Origin: Planctomycetota bacterium
GTDB lineage: Bacteria > Planctomycetota > UBA1135 > GCA-002686595
Assembly: GCA_027083445.1 (NCBI GenBank)
Contig: JALWOP010000161.1
Span: forward strand, 1 to 64,000
Reading direction: 5' to 3'
Length of the DNA stretch: 64,000 nt
Below are positions 3,116-17,723 of this stretch, in pieces. Positions within the stretch are counted from its first letter, which is position 1; every line of letters starts with the position of its first letter. Both the position numbers and the translations under genes were made by a program. The notes under the pieces are model-generated. The model saw nothing but the letters and a program-made list of their open reading frames with translations. It ran no database searches and was not told where the DNA came from.

Positions 3116-4201
3116 TCAGTCCTTGCGGGTTTCGGATTCCACGAGGCGCGTGATGAGGTTGTCCATCATCGCGAAGTAGTCCGGCACCCCAACGCTCTCC
3201 CCGACATCGATCGGTAGGGAGAGGAGGTGGGCCCCGGTCTTCTGGGCAAGGTAGGTGCCTGCGGTCCGATCGTGGTAGATCGCTTGCAGAATCGTGCGTA
3301 CCCCCTGCTCGCGCATGACGCCCAACACCCGGTCTCGCTGCTTGGCCGAGGGGGGGATCCCCGGCTTCTCTTCGATCTCGATGGGAATGGTGAACCCGAA
3401 TCGCGTCGCCAGATAGATGAAGGTCTTGTGATAGGTGACGATGGGCCGTCCGGCTAGGGGGGCGGCCTTTGCAAGCCACCCTCCGAGCATCTCCGTGAGC
3501 TCTCGATGCTCGAGGTAGTCGGAGAGACGGCCGCCCTTCGCCAGCCGATCGAGCTTTCGGCCACCCACCTCATCCACGAGTTCCGCGCCGTATAGCGCCA
3601 CGTCGATGCGGTGGCGGAAGTCCGCCAAGTTGTCCTCGTAGGTCTGCTTGTGGGCTCCGTCCAGCTCTTCGAGAGCTGTGGCGATATTCCCAGCCAGGAT
3701 CTTTGCGTTGAGTGGGTCCAGCCAGACATGGGGATTGCCATAGGGGTGTACGTCCCCCCACTCCCGGCTCAGGACGGTTGGAAGCTCCAAGGTCTGGACC
3801 CCGGTCGAGGCGATCACCCTTCCCGGCTGTCCGATCTGGATCTTGGGATTGCCCGATCCCGAGACGACTTTTTCGCCCCAGAGTTCGAGCTGCAGCCCAC
3901 ACTCGACGAAGAGATCCGCGTCCCGTGCCTTCTTCATCAGGATCGGAGTCGGCTGGACGTAATGCGGATCCTGGTTGGGAAGTGCGAGGGAGTCCACGCT
4001 GACAAACTCCCCCCCTACCTGTTTGGCCAGGTCGGCCAGGACCGGCAGGGTGGTCAGGATCTTCAGGGGAGCAACCGGCACGGCGGCCGGCTCCGCAGTT
4101 CGTTCACCTTCCGGGAGATGCGGTCCGGCAAGGGCTGTTCCCGCCCCCAGGAGGAGAGCCGCGAGGAGGAGAGAATGCCGAAGAGAGTTCCGTGATTGCA
4201 T
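3116..4201 (-). CDS. Periplasmic zinc/manganese-binding protein of ABC transporter (ZnuA-like)
   Basis: Solute-binding protein of the cluster 9 (ZnuA/MntC/PsaA) family, delivering divalent metal to the ABC-3 permease. Seen: signal peptide ending ALAG near residue 25; metal-ligand histidines at His80 (QDPHYVQP), His158 (NPHVWLDP) and His258 (TYHKTF), with an acidic ligand candidate near residue 311. Total 361 residues, normal for the family. There is no long His-rich loop, which in ZnuA proteins marks zinc preference, so the metal (Zn or Mn) is left open. It starts 10 nt after the porin gene stops, so the two are very likely co-transcribed. Confidence 0.9.
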   Translation of the reverse strand: MQSRNSLRHSLLLAALLLGAGTALAGPHLPEGERTAEPAAVPVAPLKILTTLPVLADLAKQVGGEFVSVDSLALPNQDPHYVQPTPILMKKARDADLFVECGLQLELWGEKVVSGSGNPKIQIGQPGRVIASTGVQTLELPTVLSREWGDVHPYGNPHVWLDPLNAKILAGNIATALEELDGAHKQTYEDNLADFRHRIDVALYGAELVDEVGGRKLDRLAKGGRLSDYLEHRELTEMLGGWLAKAAPLAGRPIVTYHKTFIYLATRFGFTIPIEIEEKPGIPPSAKQRDRVLGVMREQGVRTILQAIYHDRTAGTYLAQKTGAHLLSLPIDVGESVGVPDYFAMMDNLITRLVESETRKD

Positions 4202-4211
4202 GATGAGCCTC

Positions 4212-5528
4212 CTAGCGATTGACCCAGTAGGGCTCGACGGGGTGCGAGCCGAAGATGAAATTCGTTTCGAGCAAGACGGTGTTGCGCCCGTCGAGTTCGG
4301 AGAAGTCGCTCGTCGAGTGCTCCAGCCCCAGACGCATGCGGAAGAACTCGGTGGTATAGAAGGTCACATACGCGCCGTAGGTGTCGGTGCGCATGCTGGA
4401 GTCGGCTAGGTCCTCGGAGTGGTCGTAGCGCACGCCGACATAGAGATTCTTGTCGAACTGGTACTGGGACCACAGGTAGTAGCCGAGCGGACTCGAATCC
4501 AGGCCGGCCTCGCTCAGGTCGGCCTGGAACAACTCGCCTCCGATCAGGAACGACTTCCACTCTCCGCCCTGGTAGGGCTTCCACTTGTAGGTTGCGTCGA
4601 GTCCATAAACACGGTGATCGCTCCCATTCTGGAGACCGGAGAGCCCCACCTCGAGGTCCTTGCCCTGGCCGAGATCGTCGAACCATTTCACCCGGCCGAG
4701 AACGCTCAGATTGGATGCACTCTCGAGGGGTGCGATGGGAAGCTCCCCACCGTCAAAAAGACCGAGAGTGGCTTCCATCGTTTGACTCTCCGTGGGTGAG
4801 GGAAGGAAGAACTGCCCCTCCATCCCGTCCCGGATGTAGCCCTCGGGACCCAGGAAGGTGCCGAGCGCTTCCGGATAGCTCGGTTGGGGCAGGTCGTGCA
4901 GGTGGATCTGATTGAAGCGTCCGAAACCCGGACGGAAGCGGCCGAGCTTGAGCTTCAAGCCGGCGGGTGCACTGTCGAGTATCGGCAGTTTCTTGACGAC
5001 GACGTAGCCCTCCTCGATGGTGGAGTTCGCATCACCGGGGGTCTCGGATTCGTAGGTCCCGATCAGCACCCCGTCGGTCCACGGATCGATGGCGGCCCGG
5101 TAGTCCACCTCCATCTCCCTCAGGTTGAACTGGTCGTCGATTCGCGGCGCCGAAGGATCCCCGTCGAGGTGGACGGGCTGATCGTCGGAACGCATCAGGA
5201 AGTTGCCGAAGACGGTGAGTCCGGGATTGAAGACGTTCGAGCGCTGCGTGGTGACAGCCCCCTTGGCCTCCAGGCGACTCAAATCCTCCTCGATGCCCTC
5301 GAGTTCGAATTCGAAGTCGTCGCGATCATCCGATCGGCTCTGCTCGAGCTTTTCGAGACGCCGCAGGATGTCTTGGATCGTCGCCTGGGATGGGTTCGAG
5401 GAATCACTCTCGACGCCCACTTCCTGGGACGCGCTAGGAAGGGTTTGGGAATCTTGGGCGTTGGTCTGGCAGGGGATGGCAAGCAGCCCGATCCCGGCCG
5501 GAAGCGCCCAGCGAATGCTAGGGAACAT
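4212..5528 (-). CDS. Outer-membrane porin with N-terminal coiled coil, linked to metal uptake
   Basis: Predicted outer-membrane beta-barrel of 438 residues. Seen: signal peptide at 1-24 (ending TNAQ), a charged heptad-like coiled coil at about 45-95 (ILRRLEKLEQSRSDDRDD), then alternating hydrophobic/polar strands typical of phosphate-selective-porin-like or putative metal-porin barrels, ending in FGSHPVEPYWVNR. The C-terminus is not the usual aromatic residue. A periplasmic coiled coil before a barrel is common in porins that contact peptidoglycan. Position immediately upstream of the metal-binding protein suggests it lets zinc or manganese cross the outer membrane. That substrate is inference. 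Confidence 0.8.
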   Translation of the reverse strand: MFPSIRWALPAGIGLLAIPCQTNAQDSQTLPSASQEVGVESDSSNPSQATIQDILRRLEKLEQSRSDDRDDFEFELEGIEEDLSRLEAKGAVTTQRSNVFNPGLTVFGNFLMRSDDQPVHLDGDPSAPRIDDQFNLREMEVDYRAAIDPWTDGVLIGTYESETPGDANSTIEEGYVVVKKLPILDSAPAGLKLKLGRFRPGFGRFNQIHLHDLPQPSYPEALGTFLGPEGYIRDGMEGQFFLPSPTESQTMEATLGLFDGGELPIAPLESASNLSVLGRVKWFDDLGQGKDLEVGLSGLQNGSDHRVYGLDATYKWKPYQGGEWKSFLIGGELFQADLSEAGLDSSPLGYYLWSQYQFDKNLYVGVRYDHSEDLADSSMRTDTYGAYVTFYTTEFFRMRLGLEHSTSDFSELDGRNTVLLETNFIFGSHPVEPYWVNR

Positions 5529-6161: not shown

Positions 6162-8243
6162 ATGCGAGCATCCTCGATCCCGACCGTCCTGGCCCTCTTC
6201 CTCTGCGCCTGCGGCGCGAATCGTCCCGCGTCACCCCACGGGGAAACCCTCACGAGCGACGCCGAACGGGCGGGCACTCAGCAGGAGAGCGAGAAACGGG
6301 CGATCGATCCCGGTGATCTCGATCCTTCGGTTCGTCCCCAGGATGACTTCTGGCGCTACGTCAACGGCCGCTGGATCGATCGGACCGAGATCCCCGCCGA
6401 CAAGGCGAGCTGGGGAAGCTTTGTCGCTCTGAACGAGCAGGCTAGTCGCGATGTGCGCGAGATCATCGAAGACCTCGCCCAGAGGGACGATCTGGCAGAC
6501 GGTTCGCCGGAACAGCTCGTCCGCGACCTCTACCGCAGCTTCATGGACACCGAGCGCCTCGCCGAACTCGGTATGCAGCCGATCCGCGCCGATCTCGATC
6601 GGATTGCCGCCATCTCCTCGAAGGAGGAACTGGCGGCCACTTGGGGAGCCCTTGCACGCAGGCACATCGCCACCCCTCTCACCTTCTTCGTCTCCCAAGA
6701 TTCGAAGAACCCCACCGCCTATGCCGTCTTCGTCACCCAGGACGGTCTCGGGCTCCCCGACCGCGACGACTACGGCCGAGAGGGAGCGGAAGCCGCGGCG
6801 GTGCGAGAAGCCTACCGCACCTACCTGGAACGTCTTTTCGAGGAGAGCGGTGATCCCGATCCCACGCAAAGCGTCCTGCGCGCCTACGGCGTCGAAGAGT
6901 GGCTCGCCGCTGGGCAGTGGACACGCGTTCAGAATCGCGACAGCGAGAAGACCTACAACAAGCTCTCCTCGGAGGCCATGCGTGGTTCGGCGAGGAGCCT
7001 GCCCTGGGAGCCCCTGCTGGCTGCTCTCTCGCTGGATGAGATCTCCGAGTTCATCGTCCGGCAGCCGAGCTACCTCACCGCCCTAGGACGCGCGTTCGAT
7101 GAGACACCTCTCGAGGATTGGAAGGCTTACTTCCGTGCCCGCCTCCTGACCCATGCGGCGCCTTACCTCACCGAGTCGGTCTACGCCGCCTACTTCGAGT
7201 ACCAGGGGCGCACCCTCTTCGGCCAGGAGCAGCCATCCCCGCGCTGGAAACGGGGGGTGGGCCTGGTCAACCGTCAGCTGGGCCAGGCTGTCGGTCGAGA
7301 GTACGTTCGGCGCCATTTCCCCCCCCAGGCCAAGGAACGCATGCGGGCCCTTGTCGCCAACCTGCGGGCCGCTCTGGGAGAAAGCCTGAGCACCTGCCGG
7401 TGGATGAGCCCCGAGACCAAGGCCCGGGCCTTGGACAAGCTGGCCAAGTTCACCCCCAAGATCGGCTATCCCGATCACTGGCGGGACTACACCGGTCTAG
7501 AGATCCACCCGGACGACCTGATTGGAAACCTCGATCGGATCGAGGCTTTCGACTATGCCTACCAACTGGGCAAGCTCGGCGGACCCATCCGCCGTGATGA
7601 ATGGTTCATGTCTCCGCAAACCGTCAATGCCTACTACAACCCCAGGCTGAACGAAATCGTCTTTCCCGCCGCCATCTTGCAGCCCCCCTTCTTCGATCTC
7701 GAGGCGGACGATGCGGTCAACTACGGCGGCATCGGAACGGTCATCGGCCATGAAATGGGCCATGGCTTCGACGATCAGGGTCGCAAGTTTGACGGTGACG
7801 GGATGTTGCGTGATTGGTGGACCCAGGCGGATGCGGCTGAATACGAGGCCCGAGCGCAGCGTCTGCGCCAGCAGTATGAAGGCTTTTTCCCCCTCCCCGA
7901 CCTGCACATCAACGGTGCCCTCACCATGGGTGAGAACATCGGCGACCTGAATGGCCTCACCATCGCCTGGCGAGCCTACCACCACGATCTCCATGGCCGG
8001 CGCCCACCGCTGATCGATGGGCTCAGCGGAGACGAACGCTTCTTCATCAACTTCGCCCAGATCTGGCGTTCCAAGTTCCGGGAGGAAGCGCTTCGCCAGC
8101 AGATCCAGACCAACCCCCACTCTCCGCCGGAGTTCCGCGTGAGGGGGACCCTGATGAACTTCACCCCCTTCTACGAAACCTTCGCCGTACACGAGGGAGA
8201 CGGGATGTGGCGCGATCCAGCCGATCGTGTCGAGTTCTTCTAG
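6162..8243 (+). CDS. pepO: M13 family metallopeptidase (PepO/neprilysin-like), probable lipoprotein
   Basis: Exported zinc endopeptidase of the neprilysin (M13) family, 693 residues, full family length. The N-terminus has a short signal with an atypical lipobox (LCAC, Cys17). Zinc site: His530-Glu531-x-x-His534 (HEMGH) and Glu591 within ENIGD, with the supporting Asp595. The substrate-binding NAYYNPRLNEIVFPAAI region precedes the zinc motif, as in the family. Upstream are about 190 nt shared with the divergent metal operon. Downstream come three 14-nt direct repeats and then a hairpin. Acts on small peptides in the periplasm or at the membrane surface. Confidence 0.93.
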   Translation: MRASSIPTVLALFLCACGANRPASPHGETLTSDAERAGTQQESEKRAIDPGDLDPSVRPQDDFWRYVNGRWIDRTEIPADKASWGSFVALNEQASRDVREIIEDLAQRDDLADGSPEQLVRDLYRSFMDTERLAELGMQPIRADLDRIAAISSKEELAATWGALARRHIATPLTFFVSQDSKNPTAYAVFVTQDGLGLPDRDDYGREGAEAAAVREAYRTYLERLFEESGDPDPTQSVLRAYGVEEWLAAGQWTRVQNRDSEKTYNKLSSEAMRGSARSLPWEPLLAALSLDEISEFIVRQPSYLTALGRAFDETPLEDWKAYFRARLLTHAAPYLTESVYAAYFEYQGRTLFGQEQPSPRWKRGVGLVNRQLGQAVGREYVRRHFPPQAKERMRALVANLRAALGESLSTCRWMSPETKARALDKLAKFTPKIGYPDHWRDYTGLEIHPDDLIGNLDRIEAFDYAYQLGKLGGPIRRDEWFMSPQTVNAYYNPRLNEIVFPAAILQPPFFDLEADDAVNYGGIGTVIGHEMGHGFDDQGRKFDGDGMLRDWWTQADAAEYEARAQRLRQQYEGFFPLPDLHINGALTMGENIGDLNGLTIAWRAYHHDLHGRRPPLIDGLSGDERFFINFAQIWRSKFREEALRQQIQTNPHSPPEFRVRGTLMNFTPFYETFAVHEGDGMWRDPADRVEFF

Positions 8244-8312: not shown

Positions 8313-8334
8313 TGCGTGGAGCGCAAAATAGCAG

Positions 8335-8366
8335 CGTGCGCCCGGTGGTGAGCCACCGGACGCACG
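8335..8366 (-). terminator. Hairpin terminator for octaheme operon
   Basis: CGTGCG-C-CCGGTGG pairs with CCACCGG-A-CGCACG (13 bp with one mismatch, TGAG loop), 21 nt past the octaheme stop. On the minus strand a TATTTTG stretch follows a few nt later. It may also stop transcription from the convergent peptidase gene. Confidence 0.6.
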
Positions 8367-8387
8367 CGTTCGCTCGGAGAGCCGCGC

Positions 8388-9908
8388 CTACTTGGCGTAG
8401 CGCTTCTTGAAGTCCGCAGCGGCCTTCGCGCGCCTTGCGGCTTCTTCTGGATCCATCTTACCGATGAACCACTTGTGGTCGTCGGAGTTCAGAACCTCTT
8501 CGATCTTCGCCTTCAAGGCCTCTGCCGCCTTGACGCGGTCCGGGTCCTCGGAGTTCAGGTTCTTCTCGGCCAGCTCCTCGAGTTCAGGGATGTAGTCCGT
8601 GTAGAAGTGCTGGGCGATCTCGTAAGTGCCGTGCCAGTGGGTGTAATCCGGCCCCATCATCGATGCGGCGTGACGCGCACGGCGACCTTCGTGGTGCCAG
8701 AGCTCGAACCAGATGAAGTCCAGCTTGTTGCCGAACTTGACCGGCTTCAAGAGGGGCTTGGCCGCTGCATACAGCGCCGCACCCGGCTTGGCGAACTTGT
8801 TGTTGTAGAGGTCGATGAGAGCGTCGTACTGGGTGTAGAAGTTCTCGATCCAAGGTTTGCTGTGGCAGGCGGAGCAGACATCTTTCATGTTCTGCCGCCG
8901 CACCTGCCAGGGCACATCCTTGCCCGGCAGCCCCATCTTGCCGTCCGAGACCTCGGGACGAATCGAAGTAACCGGGCGGTTGTTCCAACTGATCCGCATC
9001 CCGATGTCATGGGTTACGGGCTGGTTGCGGGTCTCGGACATGTGACAGGTGGCACAGGTCGGAGCCGCGTGGTAGTCCTCACCGACGATCCACTTGGAGG
9101 AACCCAAGTTCATCTTGTCGATGTTCGCCGCATAGGCGATGCCGTGCTTGGACTCTTCGTAGATCTCCTTCTGAGGGTGGTCGGGACCCAGGTGGCACTT
9201 GCCGCAGGTCTCCGGCTGGCGGGCCTGGGCGACCGAGAAGGAGTGCCGCGAGTGACAGGCCGCACAAGAACCTTCCGAACCATCGGGGTTGAGCCGACCG
9301 ATGCCGGTGTTGGGCCAGGTCGAAGGATCGAGACCGCCTCCGGGGAGAACCTTGATCTGGGAGCCATGGCACTGCCAGCAGCCGCTGGCCGCCGCGGCCG
9401 AGACTCCTTCAGGGTGCCCCGGGGTTACGAAAGCCGAGTTGCCTTCGACCACCTCGGCCAGGACGTTGTCCAGCGAGCCCAGGATGCGCCCCGCCTTGGC
9501 GTGGTGAGAGCCGATGAATTCCTCGGTCTCCCTGGTGTGACAACGGGCACAGTCCTTGGGACTGACGATGACCGAGATCGTGAAGTCGTAGTGCCGCATC
9601 GCGTCGGGGTCGTCCCTGCGCGCGGCGTGGCACTCGTAACAGCCGACGTTTCCGCGGTAGTGCTTACTCTCGCCCCACTGCGCGTAGAGCCCAGGGCTCT
9701 CCTTGCGGTGACAGTCGATGCACTCTCGGGATTCCTTGCTGATCTCCTTGAGGCCGATCGCTTGGGGTGCGACCGGGGTGACGAGGGGTTTGGTGGTAGC
9801 TGTAGATGTCGATGCGGACGGGAGGGGTGCGTCCCCGCTCGCGCCGAACGCGATACCCACTAGCGGCACGAGGCCCAGGCCACCGATGATGACCGGGTTG
9901 AATCTCAT
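8388..9908 (-). CDS. Octaheme c-type cytochrome of the hydroxylamine oxidoreductase (HAO) family
   Basis: Periplasmic multiheme enzyme, 506 residues, signal peptide cleaved near AFGA/S23. Eight CxxCH motifs at Cys63, 90, 120, 177, 215, 235, 285 and 345. All are CxxCH; none is the CxxCK that marks NrfA or octaheme nitrite reductase (ONR). Spacing, the THDIG pair (His300-Asp301, matching the catalytic His/Asp of HAO) and the C-terminal HHEGRRARH...DYTHWHGTYE region identify the HAO family. Family members oxidise hydroxylamine or hydrazine, or run in reverse to reduce nitrite or NO. The start overlaps the NrfD stop by 4 nt, and it is the last gene of a quinol-linked operon divergent from nap, so nitrite reduction is the favoured role (inference). 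Confidence 0.88.
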   Translation of the reverse strand: MRFNPVIIGGLGLVPLVGIAFGASGDAPLPSASTSTATTKPLVTPVAPQAIGLKEISKESRECIDCHRKESPGLYAQWGESKHYRGNVGCYECHAARRDDPDAMRHYDFTISVIVSPKDCARCHTRETEEFIGSHHAKAGRILGSLDNVLAEVVEGNSAFVTPGHPEGVSAAAASGCWQCHGSQIKVLPGGGLDPSTWPNTGIGRLNPDGSEGSCAACHSRHSFSVAQARQPETCGKCHLGPDHPQKEIYEESKHGIAYAANIDKMNLGSSKWIVGEDYHAAPTCATCHMSETRNQPVTHDIGMRISWNNRPVTSIRPEVSDGKMGLPGKDVPWQVRRQNMKDVCSACHSKPWIENFYTQYDALIDLYNNKFAKPGAALYAAAKPLLKPVKFGNKLDFIWFELWHHEGRRARHAASMMGPDYTHWHGTYEIAQHFYTDYIPELEELAEKNLNSEDPDRVKAAEALKAKIEEVLNSDDHKWFIGKMDPEEAARRAKAAADFKKRYAK

Positions 9909-11185
9909 GACTGGGGTTCTCCTTTCGGTTTGGAAGCCATTTTGAGCCGTTTGGCCCAGGGAGCGTGCGCAACGCTCCCGCGCAAATAGAGTCGATCGAT
10001 CGCCAGCCTCCCGGAAAGAACCGGAATGCTGATGCGCACGAAAATGGTGAAGAGCAACAACCCGAAGGCCCAGATACCCAAACTGACGAGTATCTCATTC
10101 CAGGTCGGGGTGTATTCGACGATTTCGCCCAGCGGCGAGGGGATGAAGGCCGGAATGATCAGGCCCATCCCCTTCTCAATCCAGATCCCCACGATCAGGG
10201 CCAGGCACCCGATGTTGAGATACTTGAGGCTGAGCTCCACGGGGAGGAGCAGGACGCCCAGGCCGATCAGGTCCAATGCAATAGCCGACCAGATCCAAGG
10301 GACCAGGCCGGAGTGGCCGTGCAATCCCAGGAAGAGGTAGCGGGCAGAAGCTCCATGCGCCGAATCGGTGTAGAACTCGGTGAAGACCTCGCAGGCCAGG
10401 AGGAACATACTGATGATCATCGCCACCGTGACGATGTTGCGCAGGGTCCGAATCGCCTTCTCAGGCACTTCGTACTCCGTAAAGCGGTCGATGATGCGCA
10501 GGGCGATGATCAGTACGGCCGGACCGCCGGCGAAGGCCGAGGCCAAGAAGCGCGGGGCAATGATGGCCGAATTCCAGAAAGGACGCCCACCCAAGCCTAC
10601 ATAGAGGAAGGCCGTAACGGTGTGGATGCTGACGGCCCAGAAGATGGCGAGGAAGACAAAGGGGATGTAGAAGATCCGGCTCGGCTTGCGGTGGCGGTAG
10701 GCGCAGTAGATGAGGTAGCCGCAGATATGCAGGTTGAGTAGGAGGTAGCCCGAGAGAACGACCACGTCCCAGGTCAGCATCGAGATCGGGAAGTGAAAGC
10801 GCAGGAACAGGTGATGGGCCCGGTCGACGCGCCCCAGGTCCACCGTCACGAAGAGCAGACACATGATGATCGAGGCCACGGCGAGCAACTCGCCGAAGAT
10901 CACCAGGTCATGCAGCTCCTTGTTGCGGTAGATGTAGACGGGGATCACGAGCATCACCGCCGAGGCGGCCACCCCCACCAGGAAGGTGAAATTCGCGATG
11001 TAAAGGCCCCACGAGACCTGATCGGTCATCCCTGTCGTCGCCAGACCGTAGACGAACTGCCGGCAGTAGGCGTTCAGCCCCAAGAGGGAGAGAACCGTCA
11101 ACAGGGTCATCCACCCCAGGTAGCGCCAGTCTCCGACGAAACTCAGCCGGAAGCAGCGGCGTAGGAAGCGCAGGTACTCCTTCAA
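9905..11185 (-). CDS. nrfD: NrfD/PsrC-family quinol-interacting membrane subunit (DsrP/HmcC-like)
   Basis: Integral membrane protein of 426 residues with about ten hydrophobic helices and a basic cytoplasmic tail. The length and helix pattern match the longer NrfD-family branch (DsrP, HmcC) rather than the shorter PsrC type. Members bind quinol or quinone and pass electrons to an attached iron-sulfur protein. It overlaps the ferredoxin gene by 4 nt upstream and the octaheme gene by 4 nt downstream, so all three are translationally coupled. Predicted role: take electrons from the quinol pool for the octaheme enzyme. Confidence 0.88.
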   Translation of the reverse strand: MKEYLRFLRRCFRLSFVGDWRYLGWMTLLTVLSLLGLNAYCRQFVYGLATTGMTDQVSWGLYIANFTFLVGVAASAVMLVIPVYIYRNKELHDLVIFGELLAVASIIMCLLFVTVDLGRVDRAHHLFLRFHFPISMLTWDVVVLSGYLLLNLHICGYLIYCAYRHRKPSRIFYIPFVFLAIFWAVSIHTVTAFLYVGLGGRPFWNSAIIAPRFLASAFAGGPAVLIIALRIIDRFTEYEVPEKAIRTLRNIVTVAMIISMFLLACEVFTEFYTDSAHGASARYLFLGLHGHSGLVPWIWSAIALDLIGLGVLLLPVELSLKYLNIGCLALIVGIWIEKGMGLIIPAFIPSPLGEIVEYTPTWNEILVSLGIWAFGLLLFTIFVRISIPVLSGRLAIDRLYLRGSVAHAPWAKRLKMASKPKGEPQS

Positions 11186-12171
11186 CGATCCTCCTCCATC
11201 GCTCGGACTTGCTCATCGGTGCGCGGGTAGCGCTCGTCGAAGTAGTAGAAGAAGCGCGGCATGGTCCCGACTTCGGCCTTCAAGATGAAGACGCGCTTGT
11301 TGCGCAGGATCTGTGCCACCTCGCTCTCGGGATCGAGGACGTTGCCGAACTTGCGCGCCCCGACTGGGCAAACCTCGAGGCAGGCAGGCAGACGCCCCTC
11401 ACGAGTACGATGGAGGCAGAAGGTGCACTTCTCCATGACCCCCTTCTCCCGTGGACGGTTCGAGAGGTAGGCCATGTCCGGGTTGACATCTTCGGGGGGC
11501 AGGGTCGGCTCGGCGTAGTTGAAGCGCCGTGCCCAGTAGGGACAGGCCGCCTCGCAGTATCGGCAGCCGATGCACCAGTCGTAGTCGATGACCGTAATCC
11601 CGTCGGGCTCCTGCCAGGTGGCCTCCACCGGGCAGACCTTGACGCAAGGGGGGTTCTTGCACTGGTGGCACTGCACCGGCATGTAGAAGTGCTCGTCGTC
11701 CGGGACAGCCTCACGGTCGTAGTGATGATCGGACATCTCCACGTCCAAGGTCCCCTTGGGGAGCTCGAGCACACGGATGTACTGGATCTCCGGCGAACGG
11801 CTCTGGTTGTTCTCGGCCACGCAGGCATGCACACACTTGCGGCATCCGATGCAGCGACTGAGGTTCAGGGCGTAGACGAACTCAACCCCCTCCTGGGGCT
11901 TGACGTCTTTGACGGTCACCTCGACGCCCGTGCGTTGCTCGACCTCCTTCTCTATGCGCTGCAGGGCTTCGTTCATCTCCTCTGGGGACATCTCCTTGTA
12001 GTGCTTCTGCAGCAGCTTCTGGATCGAGGGCAGGTCGTCGCCTTCGAGATCCTTGAGAGGAGAGAGGGCTCCCGCCACGGCGGCGGTGGCGCCGGCCACG
12101 GTCAAGCCTCCCTTGAGTACGCCGCGCCGCGTCGGTTCGGAAGAGTCGGGGGTGGGGGAAGGATCAGTCAT
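11182..12171 (-). CDS. Tat-exported ferredoxin with four [4Fe-4S] sites (DsrO/HmcB/NrfC-like)
   Basis: 329 residues. The N-terminus has a twin-arginine signal (TRRGVLKGG, then a small-residue hydrophobic stretch), placing it on the periplasmic face. Four cysteine groups follow: CIGCRKCVHAC, CHQCKNPPCVKVCP, CIGCRYCEAACP and CTFCLHR...CLEVCP, the DmsB/NrfC/DsrO pattern for four [4Fe-4S] clusters. An insert of about 90 residues precedes the first cluster and looks helical and charged. It is the electron wire between the NrfD subunit and the cytochromes encoded on both sides. It overlaps the tetraheme gene stop by 8 nt. Confidence 0.92.
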   Translation of the reverse strand: MTDPSPTPDSSEPTRRGVLKGGLTVAGATAAVAGALSPLKDLEGDDLPSIQKLLQKHYKEMSPEEMNEALQRIEKEVEQRTGVEVTVKDVKPQEGVEFVYALNLSRCIGCRKCVHACVAENNQSRSPEIQYIRVLELPKGTLDVEMSDHHYDREAVPDDEHFYMPVQCHQCKNPPCVKVCPVEATWQEPDGITVIDYDWCIGCRYCEAACPYWARRFNYAEPTLPPEDVNPDMAYLSNRPREKGVMEKCTFCLHRTREGRLPACLEVCPVGARKFGNVLDPESEVAQILRNKRVFILKAEVGTMPRFFYYFDERYPRTDEQVRAMEEDR

Positions 12172-12799
12172 GGTCGGATGGCCCCGTGCGCATGTGCTTC
12201 AGCAGGGGATCTTCCGGGGCGGGTTCCCCGTGACCGGGGTCGCCCATGCGCAGGGTGTGCGGGCCCGGGAGGGGCTTTAGGGTGGGGAAGGCGGGTGAGT
12301 GGGGATCGTGACACTGGGTGCAGACCAAACGGCCTCGCTCGGGTCGCTTCGGATCCCAGCTCCCGGTCGAGCGCCCGTGCATGCCGCGTTCCCAGTCACG
12401 GTAGGTCGGCCCGTGGCATTTCTGGCAGAGCAGCTCGACCTGGTCGTAGCCGATCTCCTGTTCCAGGTAGAGCACCAGCCGGTCGCGGTGCTTGTTCGAG
12501 TGGCAGTTCGAACACTGGTTGTTGATCCCGTGGCGCAGGTGAATCTCCCCGTGTTGCAGACGCTCGCCATCGGTCACGAGCGGGGTGTCGAACAACTTGT
12601 GGCAATCCGAGCAGCGCTGCTTCAGCCCCCCGATCTCGATCGTGGGAGGGTCGGGAAAGATGGTTCGGCGCGGGGAGGGATCGATGTCCGCGGGCGAGAC
12701 CGAAGCCGCCGGCTCCAGATCGGGCAGCGTGGGCTGGGGTCCGACGAAGAACCAGAGGGCTAGCCCGAAGAAGACCACCGGGATGGCTAGGTTCGACAT
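12164..12799 (-). CDS. Membrane-anchored tetraheme cytochrome c
   Basis: First gene of the octaheme operon. Starting at the ATG at 12799 the protein has 211 residues and opens with a membrane anchor (MSNLAIPVVFFGLALWFFV). An in-frame ATG at 12820 adds seven residues ahead of the anchor and is less likely. Four CxxCH heme sites: CSDCHKL, CSNCHSN, CQKCHGP and CTQCHDP. It is not a NapC/NirT protein by sequence; the arrangement cytochrome - ferredoxin - NrfD recalls DsrJ-DsrO-DsrP and Hmc complexes. It likely sits between the ferredoxin and the octaheme enzyme. Confidence 0.82.
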   Translation of the reverse strand: MSNLAIPVVFFGLALWFFVGPQPTLPDLEPAASVSPADIDPSPRRTIFPDPPTIEIGGLKQRCSDCHKLFDTPLVTDGERLQHGEIHLRHGINNQCSNCHSNKHRDRLVLYLEQEIGYDQVELLCQKCHGPTYRDWERGMHGRSTGSWDPKRPERGRLVCTQCHDPHSPAFPTLKPLPGPHTLRMGDPGHGEPAPEDPLLKHMRTGPSDHD

Positions 12800-12877
12800 G
12801 CTTGGTGGGGGGCAGGTCATGGGGAAGCGCCGGGCAGGGAATGGTGCCTAGCGGGAGTGGAGAAGGTATCGGGTGAA

Positions 12878-13067: not shown

Positions 13068-13319
13068 ATGGTCACGATCGGTGTCCTCGTTCGCGTGGAC
13101 CCAACCCAAGAACCCGAGACCGAAGCGCGCCTCGGAGTTCTGGAAGGCGTCCAGCTCATTCCCCTCGAGGAGCCCCACACCCTGGGCGCAGTGATCCAAG
13201 CCGAGGATCTCGACGAGGCCCACGAGCGCCTCGTCACCCAGGTCCAAACCCTGCCCGGCGTGCTCTGTGCCTGGCCCCTGCACACCGAGCTCGCGTCCAC
13301 CCCCCCGTCGCACAACTGA
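13068..13319 (+). CDS. napD: NapD-family chaperone for nitrate reductase maturation
   Basis: 83 residues, about the family's usual length. NapD binds the Tat signal peptide of NapA and holds it back until the molybdenum cofactor is inserted. The start at 13068 is chosen for the AAGGAGA ribosome site 9-15 nt upstream and because the longer open frame (from 12873) would run through the promoter. Seen: a ferredoxin-like alpha/beta pattern and the conserved LPGVLCAWPLHTEL ending, equivalent to the family's GVL..SLVYH. It lies 7 nt before napA, which fits its role. Confidence 0.88.
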   Translation: MVTIGVLVRVDPTQEPETEARLGVLEGVQLIPLEEPHTLGAVIQAEDLDEAHERLVTQVQTLPGVLCAWPLHTELASTPPSHN

Positions 13320-13326
13320 GCCAACC

Positions 13327-15633
13327 ATGCAGATCAATCGAAGAGACTTCGTCCGCATCTCCGCCGCCACCACGGCTGCTGCCGCGGGCGGGCCGGCCGT
13401 CGCAGCCGCCGCAAGGCCCCGCGCAATCGAGTGGCACAAGTCCGTCTGCCGCTTCTGCGGAACGGGCTGCGGCGTTCAGATCGCCGTCGACAACGGCCGC
13501 CTAGTCGCCCTCCGAGGCGACCCCGAGCACCCCACCACCAAGGGACTGGTCTGCGCCAAGTCGCTCTTCCTTCCCAAGATCGTCCACTCCCCCACCCGTC
13601 TGAAGTATCCGATGATCCGCAACGCAGCCGGGGAGTTGGAGCGGGCTACCTGGGATCAGGCGATGGATCTGGTCGCCGACAAGTTCGCCCAGGCCATCCG
13701 TGACCACGGTGCCGACAGCGTCGCGTACTACGGATCCGGCCAGGCCCTCTCCGAGGAGAGTTACTACGCCAACCGTCTCTTCAAGGGAGGGATCGGAACC
13801 AACAACGTCGAGGGCAACCCCCGGCTCTGCATGGCCAGTGCCGTGGGCGGCTATGTGACGACGTTCAGCAAGGACGAACCCATGGGCTGCTACGACGACA
13901 TCGATGCGGCCAATACCTTCTTCCTGATCGGCTCCAACACTGCCGAATGCCACCCGGTCATCTTCGACCGCATCATGGCCCGCAAGCAGTCGAACCGCCG
14001 TACGACGGTCATCTGCGTCGATCCGCGCAAGAGCCCTGTCCAGACGATTGCCGACCTCTACCTGCAGCCCAAACCGGGCTACGACCTGGCACTCCTGCAT
14101 GCGATGGCGCAGGTGATCATCGAGGAGAAGCGCTACGACGAGGCTTTCGTCGCTCAGCACGTCAACTTCAAGACCGTCGTGGACGGCAAACCCCTCGCGG
14201 TCGGCTTCGACGACTACCGGGAGTTCCTGGCCGACTGGACGCCCGAGAAGGCCGGCGCAGTCTGTGGCGTGAACCCCGAGTCCATCCGCGAAGCGGCACG
14301 CCTGTTCGCCAGCGGTCCGACGACCTCCTTCTGGACCATGGGGCTCAACCAGCGCGTGCACGGGGTCTGGGCCAACAACCTGGTCCACAACCTGCACCTG
14401 CTCACCGGACAGATCGGCAAGCCCGGGGCAACCCCCTTCAGCCTCACCGGTCAACCCAACGCCTGCGGCGGGGTGCGCGACACCGGTTCCCTGTGCCACA
14501 TCCTGCCCTACGGTCGCGTCGTCAAGAAGGCCGAGCACCGCGCCCAGATGGAAGCGATCTGGGGCTGCAAACCGGGTACGATCCAGCCCAAGCCGGGACT
14601 GAACACGATCGAGATGTTCAAAGCCCTGGGGGAAGGGAAGATCAAGGCCATGCTGGTCTTGACCACCAACCCCGGCCAGTCCCTGCCCAACCTGAACAAG
14701 CACCGCAAAGCGATGGCGGGAGACTCGTTCCTCGTGGTGCTCGATGCGTTCCCGACCGAGACGACCAAGATCGCCGACGTCGTCCTGCCGGCTGCCATGT
14801 GGACCGAGAAATCCGGCGTCTTCGGCATGTCGGAGCGGCGTTACCAGTACCAACCGAGCGTGGTCACCCCACCGGGAGAGGCCCGCTCTGACTATGCCAT
14901 CCTGGTCGACTTCGCCCGGCGCCTGGAGGCACGCGGCGCGATTCCCAAGGGCTATGCGACCGGCAAGCTCTCGACGACCGATGACTGCTGGGAAGAGATG
15001 ATGCAGGCTTCGAAGGACACGGCCTATGACTTCCGCGGCATGCCCCGAGAGCGACTCAAGCGGGAGCGCGGTGTGCGCTGGCCGGCCCCCACGGTCGATC
15101 ATCCCGGCACCGCTCGTCGCTACGTCAAGGGCGAGGACCCCCTGCTCGACAGCGGCCCCTACGCCGACGCCAGCCTCGAGCCGGGCGATGTGAAGTTCTA
15201 TGCCGCCGCCGATGGCAAGGCCAACATCTGGCTGCGTCCCGTCGTCGGCCCCGCCGAACCGCCCGATGCGGAGTACCCCTTCGTGCTCTCGACCGGCCGG
15301 GTGCTCGAACACTGGCACACGGGAACGATGACCCGAGCCGCCGCCGAGCTGCGCCGCGCACAGCCCGAGGCCTTCGTCGAGATCCACCCCAAGGATGCCA
15401 AGGCCCTGGGCATCCGCACGGGCGACCGAGTCGACATCGAGTCCCGACGGGGACGCTCCACGATCAAGGCTCGCGTGGTCGACATGCCCCAGCCGGGAAT
15501 GGTCTTCGTGCCCTTCCACTGGGATGACGAGGGCAGCCTGATCAACGAGGTCACGATCGACGCCTATGACCCCGGATCGAAGCAGCCCGAGTTCAAGATC
15601 TGCGCCGTCCGACTCTCGAAGGCCAAGTCATGA
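13327..15633 (+). CDS. napA: Periplasmic nitrate reductase catalytic subunit NapA
   Basis: Molybdenum enzyme reducing nitrate to nitrite in the periplasm; 768 residues. Tat signal NRRDFVR at residues 4-10. The N-terminal [4Fe-4S] site is Cys41-x2-Cys44-x3-Cys48-x27-Cys76. The presumed molybdenum ligand is Cys168 in PRLCMASAVGGY, the NapA signature (formate dehydrogenases have Sec/Cys in a different context), followed by the typical DEPMGCYDD. The C-terminal molydopterin-binding domain is complete (LSTGRVLEHWHTGTMT near residue 657). The start at 13327 places the Tat motif at the N-terminus; the open frame from 13267 is an overlap with napD. The stop overlaps the next gene by 4 nt. Confidence 0.95.
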   Translation: MQINRRDFVRISAATTAAAAGGPAVAAAARPRAIEWHKSVCRFCGTGCGVQIAVDNGRLVALRGDPEHPTTKGLVCAKSLFLPKIVHSPTRLKYPMIRNAAGELERATWDQAMDLVADKFAQAIRDHGADSVAYYGSGQALSEESYYANRLFKGGIGTNNVEGNPRLCMASAVGGYVTTFSKDEPMGCYDDIDAANTFFLIGSNTAECHPVIFDRIMARKQSNRRTTVICVDPRKSPVQTIADLYLQPKPGYDLALLHAMAQVIIEEKRYDEAFVAQHVNFKTVVDGKPLAVGFDDYREFLADWTPEKAGAVCGVNPESIREAARLFASGPTTSFWTMGLNQRVHGVWANNLVHNLHLLTGQIGKPGATPFSLTGQPNACGGVRDTGSLCHILPYGRVVKKAEHRAQMEAIWGCKPGTIQPKPGLNTIEMFKALGEGKIKAMLVLTTNPGQSLPNLNKHRKAMAGDSFLVVLDAFPTETTKIADVVLPAAMWTEKSGVFGMSERRYQYQPSVVTPPGEARSDYAILVDFARRLEARGAIPKGYATGKLSTTDDCWEEMMQASKDTAYDFRGMPRERLKRERGVRWPAPTVDHPGTARRYVKGEDPLLDSGPYADASLEPGDVKFYAAADGKANIWLRPVVGPAEPPDAEYPFVLSTGRVLEHWHTGTMTRAAAELRRAQPEAFVEIHPKDAKALGIRTGDRVDIESRRGRSTIKARVVDMPQPGMVFVPFHWDDEGSLINEVTIDAYDPGSKQPEFKICAVRLSKAKS

Positions 15634-16346
15634 AGATCCCCCTCTCCCTTCTCACCCTGGCCCTAGCGGCGGTTCCCGCCTGTCAGGAAAGCGTGCCCGA
15701 GCCGGACGCCGCAACCGTGGAGGTGGCGGAGCCGGTGCCCCCCGCCGGACCGTCAACCCAGGTACCGGCGACACAGGAACCGGCAGTGAGCGACAGCTCC
15801 CAGCCCAGCGCGCCGGTGGCCGCGGTTCGCGAGGCTCCCCAGGGCGCACGCGGTGAGAGGATCGCCGCTCCCAAGGCCCAGAAGGACGAAGCACAGGAGG
15901 CGGTCGCCTTCGTCGACTTCGCGCCCCATGCCTTCCCGCCGACCCTCCCCCACGACGACAACCACGCCGACCCCTGGTCCGCCCAGACCTGTCTGCTCTG
16001 CCACTCCCGGGGAATCGGAGATGCTCCCCGTGTGCGCCACTCGGGCATGTCGGGCGAGTTGATCAAAGGCAATTGCCGCTCCTGCCACCTCCCCCGGGGG
16101 GGCGAGGAGGAACCCTTGACCGAAGCAGGGTTCAGCGCCAACGCCTTCCCGCCCCTGCTCCCCGGTGACTCCTCGCACAGCGGGGCGTGGATGCGGGATG
16201 ACTGCCTGCTCTGCCACGAGAGCGGAACCCGCAGGGCTCCTAGGGTGAGGCACAAGGGCATGTCCCCCCTCCTCCTCAAGGCGCGCTGCCGCTCCTGTCA
16301 CCTGCCGGGAGCTCCCTCCATCGATGCAAACGCGAGCGGAGACTGA
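15630..16346 (+). CDS. napB: Tetraheme NapB-like cytochrome made of a tandem duplicated diheme unit
   Basis: Periplasmic electron carrier to NapA, 238 residues. A signal with a possible lipobox (VPAC, Cys18) is followed by a Pro/Ala/Glu-rich linker to about residue 90. Then two similar units: FPPTLPHDDNHADPW...CLLCHSRG...APRVRHSGM...CRSCHLP and FPPLLPGDSSHSGAW...CLLCHESG...APRVRHKGM...CRSCHLP. Each resembles one whole diheme NapB core (CLxCHxxG-AP-H-CxxCHxP). Ordinary NapB has two hemes and about 150 residues, so this is an internal duplication giving four hemes. Its ATGA overlap with napA and 23-nt overlap with napG show tight coupling. Confidence 0.85.
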   Translation: MKIPLSLLTLALAAVPACQESVPEPDAATVEVAEPVPPAGPSTQVPATQEPAVSDSSQPSAPVAAVREAPQGARGERIAAPKAQKDEAQEAVAFVDFAPHAFPPTLPHDDNHADPWSAQTCLLCHSRGIGDAPRVRHSGMSGELIKGNCRSCHLPRGGEEEPLTEAGFSANAFPPLLPGDSSHSGAWMRDDCLLCHESGTRRAPRVRHKGMSPLLLKARCRSCHLPGAPSIDANASGD

Positions 16347-16920
16347 ATCCGCCGGACCCCGCCCCAGTCGCCGGCTGCTCCTGGCAGCGGTCGGTCTGGG
16401 GATCGGGGCGGGAGCGGGGACCCTCGTGCGCGAAGGCGGGCGCCACGGGGGAACCTACCTGCGTCCCCCCGGGGCCGCCGCCGACTTCCTCGCCACCTGC
16501 CTGCGCTGCGGCCTCTGCGCAGAGGCCTGCCCGGTGGATGCCATCGCCATGGCAGGGGTCGCGGCGGGAACCTCCTACGCGACGCCGACGATCGATGCGC
16601 GCGAAGCACCGTGCCGGCTCTGCGCCGGCTTCGACGAGCTACGCTGCACGGCCGTCTGCCCATCGACAGCCCTGTCGGCCCCCGCGAGTCGCCGGGAGGT
16701 ACGCATGGGTGTTGCCCGCATCGATACCGACCGCTGCCTGGCATGGCTCGGGGTGGTCTGCCGCGCTTGCTGGCACGCCTGCCCCTATCCGGGGGAGGCG
16801 CTGGCCCTCGATGAGCGCACCCGACCCAGCGTCGTGGAAGAGGTCTGCGTGGGTTGCGGGATCTGCGTCCACGCCTGCCTGACCGAAGAGAGCTCGATCC
16901 AGGTCACTCCCGCGTCATGA
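16324..16920 (+). CDS. napG: NapG-type ferredoxin, Tat-exported, four [4Fe-4S] sites
   Basis: 198 residues, MauM/NapG family. An N-terminal twin-arginine signal (SRRLLLAAVGLGIGAG) directs it to the periplasm. Cluster motifs: CLRCGLCAEACP, CRLCAGFDELRCTAVCP, CLAWLGVVCRACWHACP and CVGCGICVHAC, in the NapG order. With NapH it forms a quinol dehydrogenase supplying NapA, and here it would replace the absent NapC. It overlaps the NapB-like gene by 23 nt and napH by 4 nt. Confidence 0.93.
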   Translation: MQTRAETESAGPRPSRRLLLAAVGLGIGAGAGTLVREGGRHGGTYLRPPGAAADFLATCLRCGLCAEACPVDAIAMAGVAAGTSYATPTIDAREAPCRLCAGFDELRCTAVCPSTALSAPASRREVRMGVARIDTDRCLAWLGVVCRACWHACPYPGEALALDERTRPSVVEEVCVGCGICVHACLTEESSIQVTPAS

Positions 16921-17723
16921 TTCCCCGCTGGACGATCGCACGGCGGGCGTCCGCCGCCGCCTTCCTCTCCTGGCTGGCACTGGGCTGGGGCATCCAAGGC
17001 TCCTCGGTGGCCACTCGTATTGCGGACAGCCTGCCCTTCACCGATCCCCTCGCTGCCCTGGAGGTCAGCCTCGCCAGCGGAGAGTTGCATCCCCACCTCT
17101 GGATCGGGGCGGGAGTGGTGCTCGGGATCACGCTGCTCCTGGGTCCGATGTTCTGCGGCTGGCTCTGCCCGCTGGGACTCCTGCTCGACCTGGCTCACTC
17201 GCTGGAGAGACGTGTGCGCCGGCTCATGCACCGGCACGTGGGTGTGGAGCGCAGGCTCCCGCCGCGCACGCGCATCCTGACCCTGGCCCTGGTGCTGGGC
17301 TTCGCCGCCACTTCGGGCCTGCCCCTGTTTCAGCTCATCTCCCCCATCCACGCCATCGGACGGGGCATCGTCCTCGGTTTCGACGTTGCCCTGGGTCTGG
17401 TCGCGCTCCTCTTGGTGGTCGAGATCTTCGTTCCCCGGGTCTGGTGCCGGGCCCTGTGCCCCCTGGGTGGGCTCTACGGCTGGGTCGGCAAGCATGGTCT
17501 CTTGCGGGTCCGGATCGACCCCGAGCGGGCAGGTCAGATCCGCTGCCGGCGGTGCGACGTGGCCTGTCCCGCCGGCATCGCGGTCATGGAGGAGTACGCC
17601 CTGGGTGGAGCCACCTCCGTCGTCGACGAGGGCTGTATGCGCTGCGGCGCCTGCACCGAGGTCTGCCCCCGGGGAGTGCTGCACATGGGCCTTGGCGCTT
17701 CCCGGAAGAGGCGGGAGAATTAG
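16917..17723 (+). CDS. napH: NapH-type quinol dehydrogenase membrane subunit
   Basis: 268 residues with four or five membrane helices. Two membrane-loop CxxxCP motifs typical of NapH/NosR/CcoG (MFCGWLCPLG and WCRALCPLGG), then two [4Fe-4S] motifs in the cytoplasmic tail (CRRCDVACP and CMRCGACTEVCP). The ATG at 16917 overlaps the napG stop (ATGA). It oxidises menaquinol and passes electrons to NapG. It is the last gene of the nap operon. Confidence 0.93.
   Translation: MIPRWTIARRASAAAFLSWLALGWGIQGSSVATRIADSLPFTDPLAALEVSLASGELHPHLWIGAGVVLGITLLLGPMFCGWLCPLGLLLDLAHSLERRVRRLMHRHVGVERRLPPRTRILTLALVLGFAATSGLPLFQLISPIHAIGRGIVLGFDVALGLVALLLVVEIFVPRVWCRALCPLGGLYGWVGKHGLLRVRIDPERAGQIRCRRCDVACPAGIAVMEEYALGGATSVVDEGCMRCGACTEVCPRGVLHMGLGASRKRREN

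Follow-up and report, generated by a model that had tools for sequence, protein, structure and literature searches.

Octaheme cytochromes of the HAO family paired with an NrfD-type membrane protein are known from two deep-sea thermophiles, in which the loci TDIS_0606-0609 and DBT_2326-2329 encode a HaoA-homologous cytochrome, an NrfD protein, a 4Fe-4S protein and a (transmembrane) cytochrome beside napMADGH; the part of that report concerned with the locus proposes a role in nitrite reduction or sulfur metabolism (PMC5276818, 2017). Likewise, the sulfite reductase MccACD combines an octaheme catalytic cytochrome with a four-cluster iron-sulfur (FeS) subunit and an NrfD-type subunit, although MccD has 8 transmembrane helices and the relevant excerpt of the survey mentions neither a separate tetraheme cytochrome there nor an HAO-type partner of NrfD (PMC8076601). 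Here we analyse a stretch of 64,000 nucleotides from a Planctomycetota bacterium (hereafter 'the window'; assembly GCA_027083445.1, contig JALWOP010000161.1, positions 1 to 64,000), in which a cassette of four genes encodes a tetraheme c-type cytochrome (MHC4), a ferredoxin exported by twin-arginine translocation (Tat), an NrfD/DsrP-type subunit and an HAO-family octaheme cytochrome c (OCC). On balance we consider it probable, though by no means assured, that these genes encode a quinol:nitrite oxidoreductase which most likely yields ammonium. As judged by the published description, the same four gene types stand beside nap in the two thermophiles, which belong to other phyla. The original prediction for this locus, made from the sequence alone, held that no such pairing had been described; the 2017 report contradicts this, and MccACD is another octaheme-NrfD complex. 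Our literature search on NrfD with octaheme or HAO found only PMC5276818 to describe the four-gene pairing. The pairing itself is already in print; new, as far as the literature search shows, are its breadth, its separation from DsrJOP, its modular relatives and a conserved helper gene.

The original prediction had placed a three-subunit pattern (multiheme c, Tat ferredoxin, NrfD) resembling DsrJOP at 9905-12799, a span that excludes the OCC gene with which it saw the set coupled. We confirm the four open reading frames (ORFs) on the minus strand and their overlaps (tetraheme/FeS 8 nt; FeS/NrfD 4 nt, TTGA; NrfD/OCC 4 nt, ATGA), and the pattern is borne out by the heme, cysteine, Tat and membrane features: the tetraheme cytochrome has a single anchor, the FeS protein carries the Tat motif TRRGVL and arranges its cysteines as four groups of four, and NrfD exhibits 9 hydrophobic segments in a simple scan. 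By motif count, all heme motifs of the tetraheme and OCC are plain CXXCH. MccA, in contrast, has an unusual long heme motif, which is absent from the window's OCC. The likeness to DsrJOP extends to the family scores, since NrfD (Pfam NrfD, 132.6 bits) even exceeds the NCBI cut-off for DsrP (NCBIfam NF045798, 417.2 bits vs 350), while the FeS protein falls under that for DsrO (NCBIfam, 183 vs 200 bits). NrfD is not the NrfABCD equivalog (TIGR03148, 18.8 bits vs a cut-off of 347.6), the HmcB model reaches 95 bits vs a cut-off of 420, and the tetraheme matches no DsrJ or NapC/NrfH model in Pfam or NCBIfam.

OCC matches the Pfam family Multi-haem_cyto and combines eight c-heme motifs with the HAO fold. 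Its best sequence match in the PDB is 4qo5 (E 5.6e-56), which we take to be the octaheme cytochrome of Ignicoccus hospitalis, with HAO-family entries next. An AlphaFold model (mean pLDDT 80.4) likewise has 4qo5 as its closest fold (Z 25.4, root-mean-square deviation (rmsd) 3.2, 384 aligned), while HAO, HOX, HAOr and HDH yield Z 17.5-20.5, and NrfA and octaheme nitrite reductases Z 8.5-9.8. OCC is not of the NrfA type, that is, it has eight CXXCH motifs rather than five hemes with CXXCK, and the NrfA models score 15 bits vs cut-offs of 595 and 692.5. The match to HAOr (6h5l, Z 19.5) would suit an enzyme that reduces nitrite only to nitric oxide (NO), as does the anammox HAOr, or one that detoxifies NO or hydroxylamine, and the available passages of PMC11266412 and PMC12758564 describe HAO-type octahemes as producing NO or ammonium. 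OCC is nearer to 4qo5 than to HAOr, however, in fold as well as in sequence comparison (E 9.6e-70 vs 3.2e-27), and both thermophiles with the described locus carry out nitrate ammonification without NrfA, according to the pertinent part of PMC5276818. We thus regard an enzyme producing NO, or detoxifying, as unlikely, albeit worth keeping in mind.

Oxidative HAOs possess a cross-link tyrosine that reductive HAOs are without, as stated in the excerpt of PMC12758564. In our alignment the cross-link residue Y467 of HAO sits in a TY motif and is nearest to OCC residue 422; a profile-profile alignment of OCC with anammox HAO, HOX and HDH ended before this C-terminal tyrosine region. Among 97 clade sequences, residue 422 is Y in 75, I in 6, W in 4 and F in 3, with 9 unmatched by the pattern, and cassette-linked sequences are among those with I, W or F. 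Since the position can be occupied by Ile or Phe, cassette members included, it does not appear to form an essential cross-link, which, taken together with PMC12758564, points to an enzyme of the reductive type. The HAO-family fold and the prevailing tyrosine might be read the other way, with the octaheme oxidising hydroxylamine (or another nitrogen compound) and the module reducing quinone, but 13 clade sequences have I, W or F, some of them linked, and the linkage to Nap would deliver nitrite, not hydroxylamine, which renders oxidation highly improbable.

For the scan of named genomes the best 80 of 548 confirmed OCC relatives were examined, and a locus was called linked if a DsrP-like NrfD lies within 6 kb of OCC. 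The cassette is present in 49 of these 80 (L129, with a weak, 23% identical NrfD match ∼4 kb away, was not counted), and the FeS gene is found in 47 of the 49, the other two (L083, L135) being cut by contig ends. The linked records are titled as belonging to about ten phyla, that is, Planctomycetota, Verrucomicrobiota, Hydrogenedentota, Deltaproteobacteria (which the taxonomy tool assigns to Myxococcota), Bdellovibrionales, Cloacimonadota, Acidobacteria, Aminicenantes, Thermodesulfobacteriota/Desulfobacteraceae and Epsilonproteobacteria. Among the OCCs examined, those of Nitrospirota and of sulfur-oxidising Gammaproteobacteria have no cassette. In Planctomycetota, 101 of the 294 genomes searched contain OCC relatives, and of 40 hand-chosen OCC loci the closest 20 include 13 with NrfD and the 20 more distant ones none. 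One locus counted as unlinked at a contig end, L050, is the other half of genome G229, whose second contig (L201) holds the cassette beside NapA-tetraheme-G-H. With 60 linked loci in both sets, the pairing recurs more often than by chance, and the coupling to the octaheme is kept across phyla.

The order tetraheme-FeS-NrfD-OCC prevails in these 60 loci (46 cases), followed by a truncated or partly detected form (7), OCC-MHC4-FeS-NrfD (6) and a divergent arrangement (1); that the order was reshuffled while the content was retained argues for one function. Four heme motifs are present in the tetraheme of 50 out of 58 loci and three in one, while the tetraheme was not found in 7. A presumed NrfD-OCC gene fusion in G192 was rejected, its ORF being out of frame in GC-rich DNA with NrfD in a different frame. 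Our OCC and NrfD trees were built quickly, and many of their branches are weak. The label 'linked' requires only 11 changes on the OCC tree (44.9 when shuffled; 0/500 as low) and 2 on the NrfD tree (17.9 when shuffled), on which the OCC-linked NrfDs form nearly one group. Moreover, the distances among OCCs track those among NrfDs (r = 0.605; 0/2000 permutations as high) for 54 of the 58 linked loci, L048 and L049 being excluded for odd composition. OCC and NrfD thus share joint descent, and the two trees alike put Scalindua (L107, G239) together with Desulfobacteraceae (L125), the pattern that transfer of the cassette as one unit would produce.

The NCBIfam DsrP model matches 57 of 288 Planctomycetota genomes, from which we chose by hand 20 DsrP-like copies outside the cassette. 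Four of these (L184-L187) show the DsrJOP layout with a triheme of 125-128 aa, nine (L180-L183, L188, L189, L192, L194, L198) are tetraheme-FeS-NrfD beside NapA with OCC not in reach, and seven have neither NapA nor OCC in reach. One of these seven (L196:5271-7322) encodes a 683-aa cytochrome with 11 hemes directly downstream of tetraheme-FeS-NrfD, possibly a third kind of terminal partner. On the NrfD tree the four module types separate with 4 changes (minimum possible 3), the OCC-linked NrfDs constitute a lineage of their own, and the true DsrJOP loci form a separate group. Since NrfDs outside DsrJOP loci pass the cut-off of NF045798, an automatic DsrP label on a Planctomycetota gene may be misleading, and NCBI's model names many genes outside DsrMKJOP. 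A sulfur-respiring complex (DsrJOP- or Mcc-like, reducing sulfite or thiosulfate) would draw on this DsrP score and on PMC5276818, where the passage on the locus names sulfur compounds as the alternative. The position of DsrJOP on the NrfD tree, the CXXCH form of all eight heme motifs and the rarity of DsrA (4 of 50 cassette genomes; not found in the window's genome, which is 87% complete) speak against it, making it the least credible of the readings considered here.

As related copies stand beside Nap without OCC, the quinol module is not tied to the octaheme alone, and in Planctomycetota tetraheme-FeS-NrfD without octaheme could possibly substitute for NapC. It might then be mainly the quinol dehydrogenase of Nap also in the window, where nap lies directly upstream and divergent, with the octaheme sharing the module or just adjoining it and receiving electrons otherwise. 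However, the OCC-linked NrfDs stand apart from the Nap-only ones, OCC follows NrfD directly in the same operon, the window's nap operon has its own NapGH already, and NapA is not within 6 kb of OCC in 36 of the 49 named cassettes, so that we find this assignment doubtful. The claim of the original prediction that the set feeds an HAO-type enzyme hence likely holds here, but this is not the only use of the module; taken as a whole, that interpretation stands as to pattern, DsrJOP likeness and octaheme coupling, fails as to novelty of the pairing, and is too narrow in its framing of the module around the octaheme.

In the quinol:nitrite oxidoreductase that we favour, NrfD would take electrons from (mena)quinol in the membrane. 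From there they would run via the four ferredoxin clusters and then the four hemes of the membrane-anchored cytochrome, the presumed relay, to the periplasmic octaheme, with which the other subunits may form a physical complex. The neighbouring Nap nitrate reductase would supply nitrite, and OCC would reduce it, most likely to ammonium. NrfA is missing from all 13 Planctomycetota cassette genomes (vs 75 of 275 others with NrfA) and from 41 of the 49 named ones. With NrfA and DsrA mostly absent and nap nearby, quinol-driven nitrite reduction is favoured, and the ammonium step is suggested because Thermosulfurimonas dismutans and Dissulfuribacter thermophilus ammonify without NrfA and carry the locus described in that portion of PMC5276818. 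Several observations weigh against this proposal. The scarcity of NapA close to OCC, as given above, is one; another is that no more than 20 of the 49 named genomes with the cassette contain a NapA at E ≤ 1e-110, a threshold that divergent NapAs do not reach. Nap may be what the quinol module serves, to judge from the nine modules that adjoin it without OCC. Residue 422 is still tyrosine in most sequences, in an alignment to HAO Y467 that is uncertain by ∼1 residue, and fold and sequence cannot separate nitrite reduction to ammonium from that to NO or from hydroxylamine reduction. NrfA occurs in 8 of 49 linked and 4 of 31 unlinked named OCC genomes, and since these do not differ, the distribution argues only weakly for a replacement of NrfA. 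Finally, nearly all cassette genomes are metagenome-assembled, and single phylum placements may therefore be binning errors.

Table 1. Features of the cassette and of the adjoining nap operon in the window
Feature	Position	Strand	Remarks
Membrane-anchored tetraheme c-type cytochrome (MHC4)	12164..12820	-	218 aa, 4 CXXCH, N-terminal hydrophobic anchor
Tat-exported ferredoxin, four 4Fe-4S sites, DsrO/QrcC/NrfC-like	11182..12171	-	329 aa, 16 Cys
NrfD/DsrP-type integral membrane quinol-binding subunit	9905..11185	-	426 aa, TTG start
HAO-family octaheme cytochrome c (OCC), presumed nitrite reductase	8388..9908	-	506 aa, 8 CXXCH
15-pair hairpin right after OCC stop, possible operon end	8334..8367	-	consensus match only
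NapD-like chaperone	13068..13319	+	weak, 19 bits, under Pfam cut-off 28
NapA-like periplasmic molybdopterin nitrate reductase	13267..15633	+	best NCBIfam matches NapA, under cut-off
Tetraheme cytochrome in NapM/NapB place	15630..16346	+	weak NapB match
NapG-type ferredoxin	16324..16920	+	NCBIfam, under cut-off
NapH-type quinol dehydrogenase subunit	16854..17723	+	NCBIfam, under cut-off

The nap operon of the window has the order D-A-tetraheme-G-H, and the likely start of its NapA-like gene is at ∼13327 (MQINRRDF). Thirteen of the 49 named cassettes have a NapA gene no farther than 6 kb from OCC, and G229 has the window's gene order as NapA-tetraheme-G-H-MHC4-FeS-NrfD-OCC, all on one strand. 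Terminator-like sites number 5 in the region (2.6 expected), and a promoter scan gave no hit. Beyond OCC follow an M13 peptidase gene on the opposite strand (6162-8243) and two minus-strand ORFs resembling, by eye, an outer-membrane porin-like protein (4212-5528) and the binding protein of a zinc/manganese ABC transporter (3116-4201).

A conserved helper protein of ∼145–200 aa is encoded on the same strand downstream of the cassette in 35 of 120 loci (e.g., L102:10432-10890 and L079:10423-10869), either 27-290 nt after OCC or several kb farther on, past an intervening segment with nap genes; it accompanies roughly half of the cassette loci. All helper-bearing loci are cassette loci except L050, which is itself the G229 cassette cut by the contig end. 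In the survey of the phylum the helper occurs in 10 of 288 genomes, that is, in 9 of 13 cassette genomes vs 1 of 275 others, the tenth (G036) having its copy on a 5.2-kb contig without cassette; no copy is detectable in the window's genome. Some members have Cys-rich tails. Pfam gave no match at E ≤ 0.1 for one member, NCBIfam nothing near cut-off for six, and Foldseek no PDB hit below E 0.15 with a confidently predicted model (pLDDT 95.5), for which VIA-align yields IrrE-like matches just above noise (3dti, Z 9.1, rmsd 2.9, 101 aligned). The HExxH zinc site was not seen, by eye, in the listed members, which makes an active peptidase unlikely. The predicted fold of the helper is thus IrrE/minigluzincin-like, and its gene offers a handle on maturation or regulation.

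It is tempting to speculate further, if tentatively and as a possibility we hold to be less than even, that a horizontally spread and as yet unnamed respiratory complex (DsrOP-like quinol module, tetraheme and HAO-family octaheme, often with a cytoplasmic IrrE-fold helper) might accomplish nitrite ammonification in many NrfA-less bacteria of about ten phyla, including Scalindua-type anammox bacteria (L107, G239), where it could explain ammonification. If nitrite is indeed the substrate and ammonium the product, energy-coupled ammonification by NrfD complexes would be far commoner than NrfA counts imply, and surveys based on nrfA would miss such carriers. The cassette is located at L047:5493-9669 in G239 and at L107:5419-10419 in Candidatus Scalindua. 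G239 has no NrfA, and nine other genomes of its anammox-like family f46 have NrfA, with no cassette seen in those nine.

When compared with known systems, the cassette emerges as a conserved modular quinol-to-octaheme system, most probably a nitrite reductase, whose individual parts are ordinary and which has yet to be characterised in its entirety. It shares with DsrMKJOP an NrfD of DsrP type and an FeS protein close to DsrO, but has a tetraheme in place of the DsrJ triheme, with neither DsrJ nor DsrMK at the window locus (DsrMK was not searched genome-wide). HmcA of the Hmc complex has 16 hemes, as opposed to the 4 of the window cytochrome, and the HmcB score given above is likewise far below its cut-off. 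In NrfABCD, the NrfC/NrfD quinol module similarly supplies a multiheme nitrite reductase in the periplasm, with a small multiheme protein as the relay, as outlined in the excerpt of PMC12285233. The reductase there is the pentaheme NrfA with CXXCK, however, where the window has the octaheme, and the relay is the pentaheme NrfB, where the window has the tetraheme. Other NrfD clusters near nap or nxr have been noted in Planctomycetota (PMC10732223, in the passage concerned). The Ignicoccus octaheme, the best match of OCC in both sequence and fold, is archaeal and has no proven in vivo function according to the available part of PMC4429474. In Caldithrix abyssi the corresponding section of PMC5317091 assigns quinol oxidation to Rieske/cytochrome b or alternative complex III (ACIII), without an NrfD module, but as in the window an HAO-family octaheme, epsilon-Hao, stands beside a napM-type Nap cluster and is proposed to reduce nitrite to ammonium.

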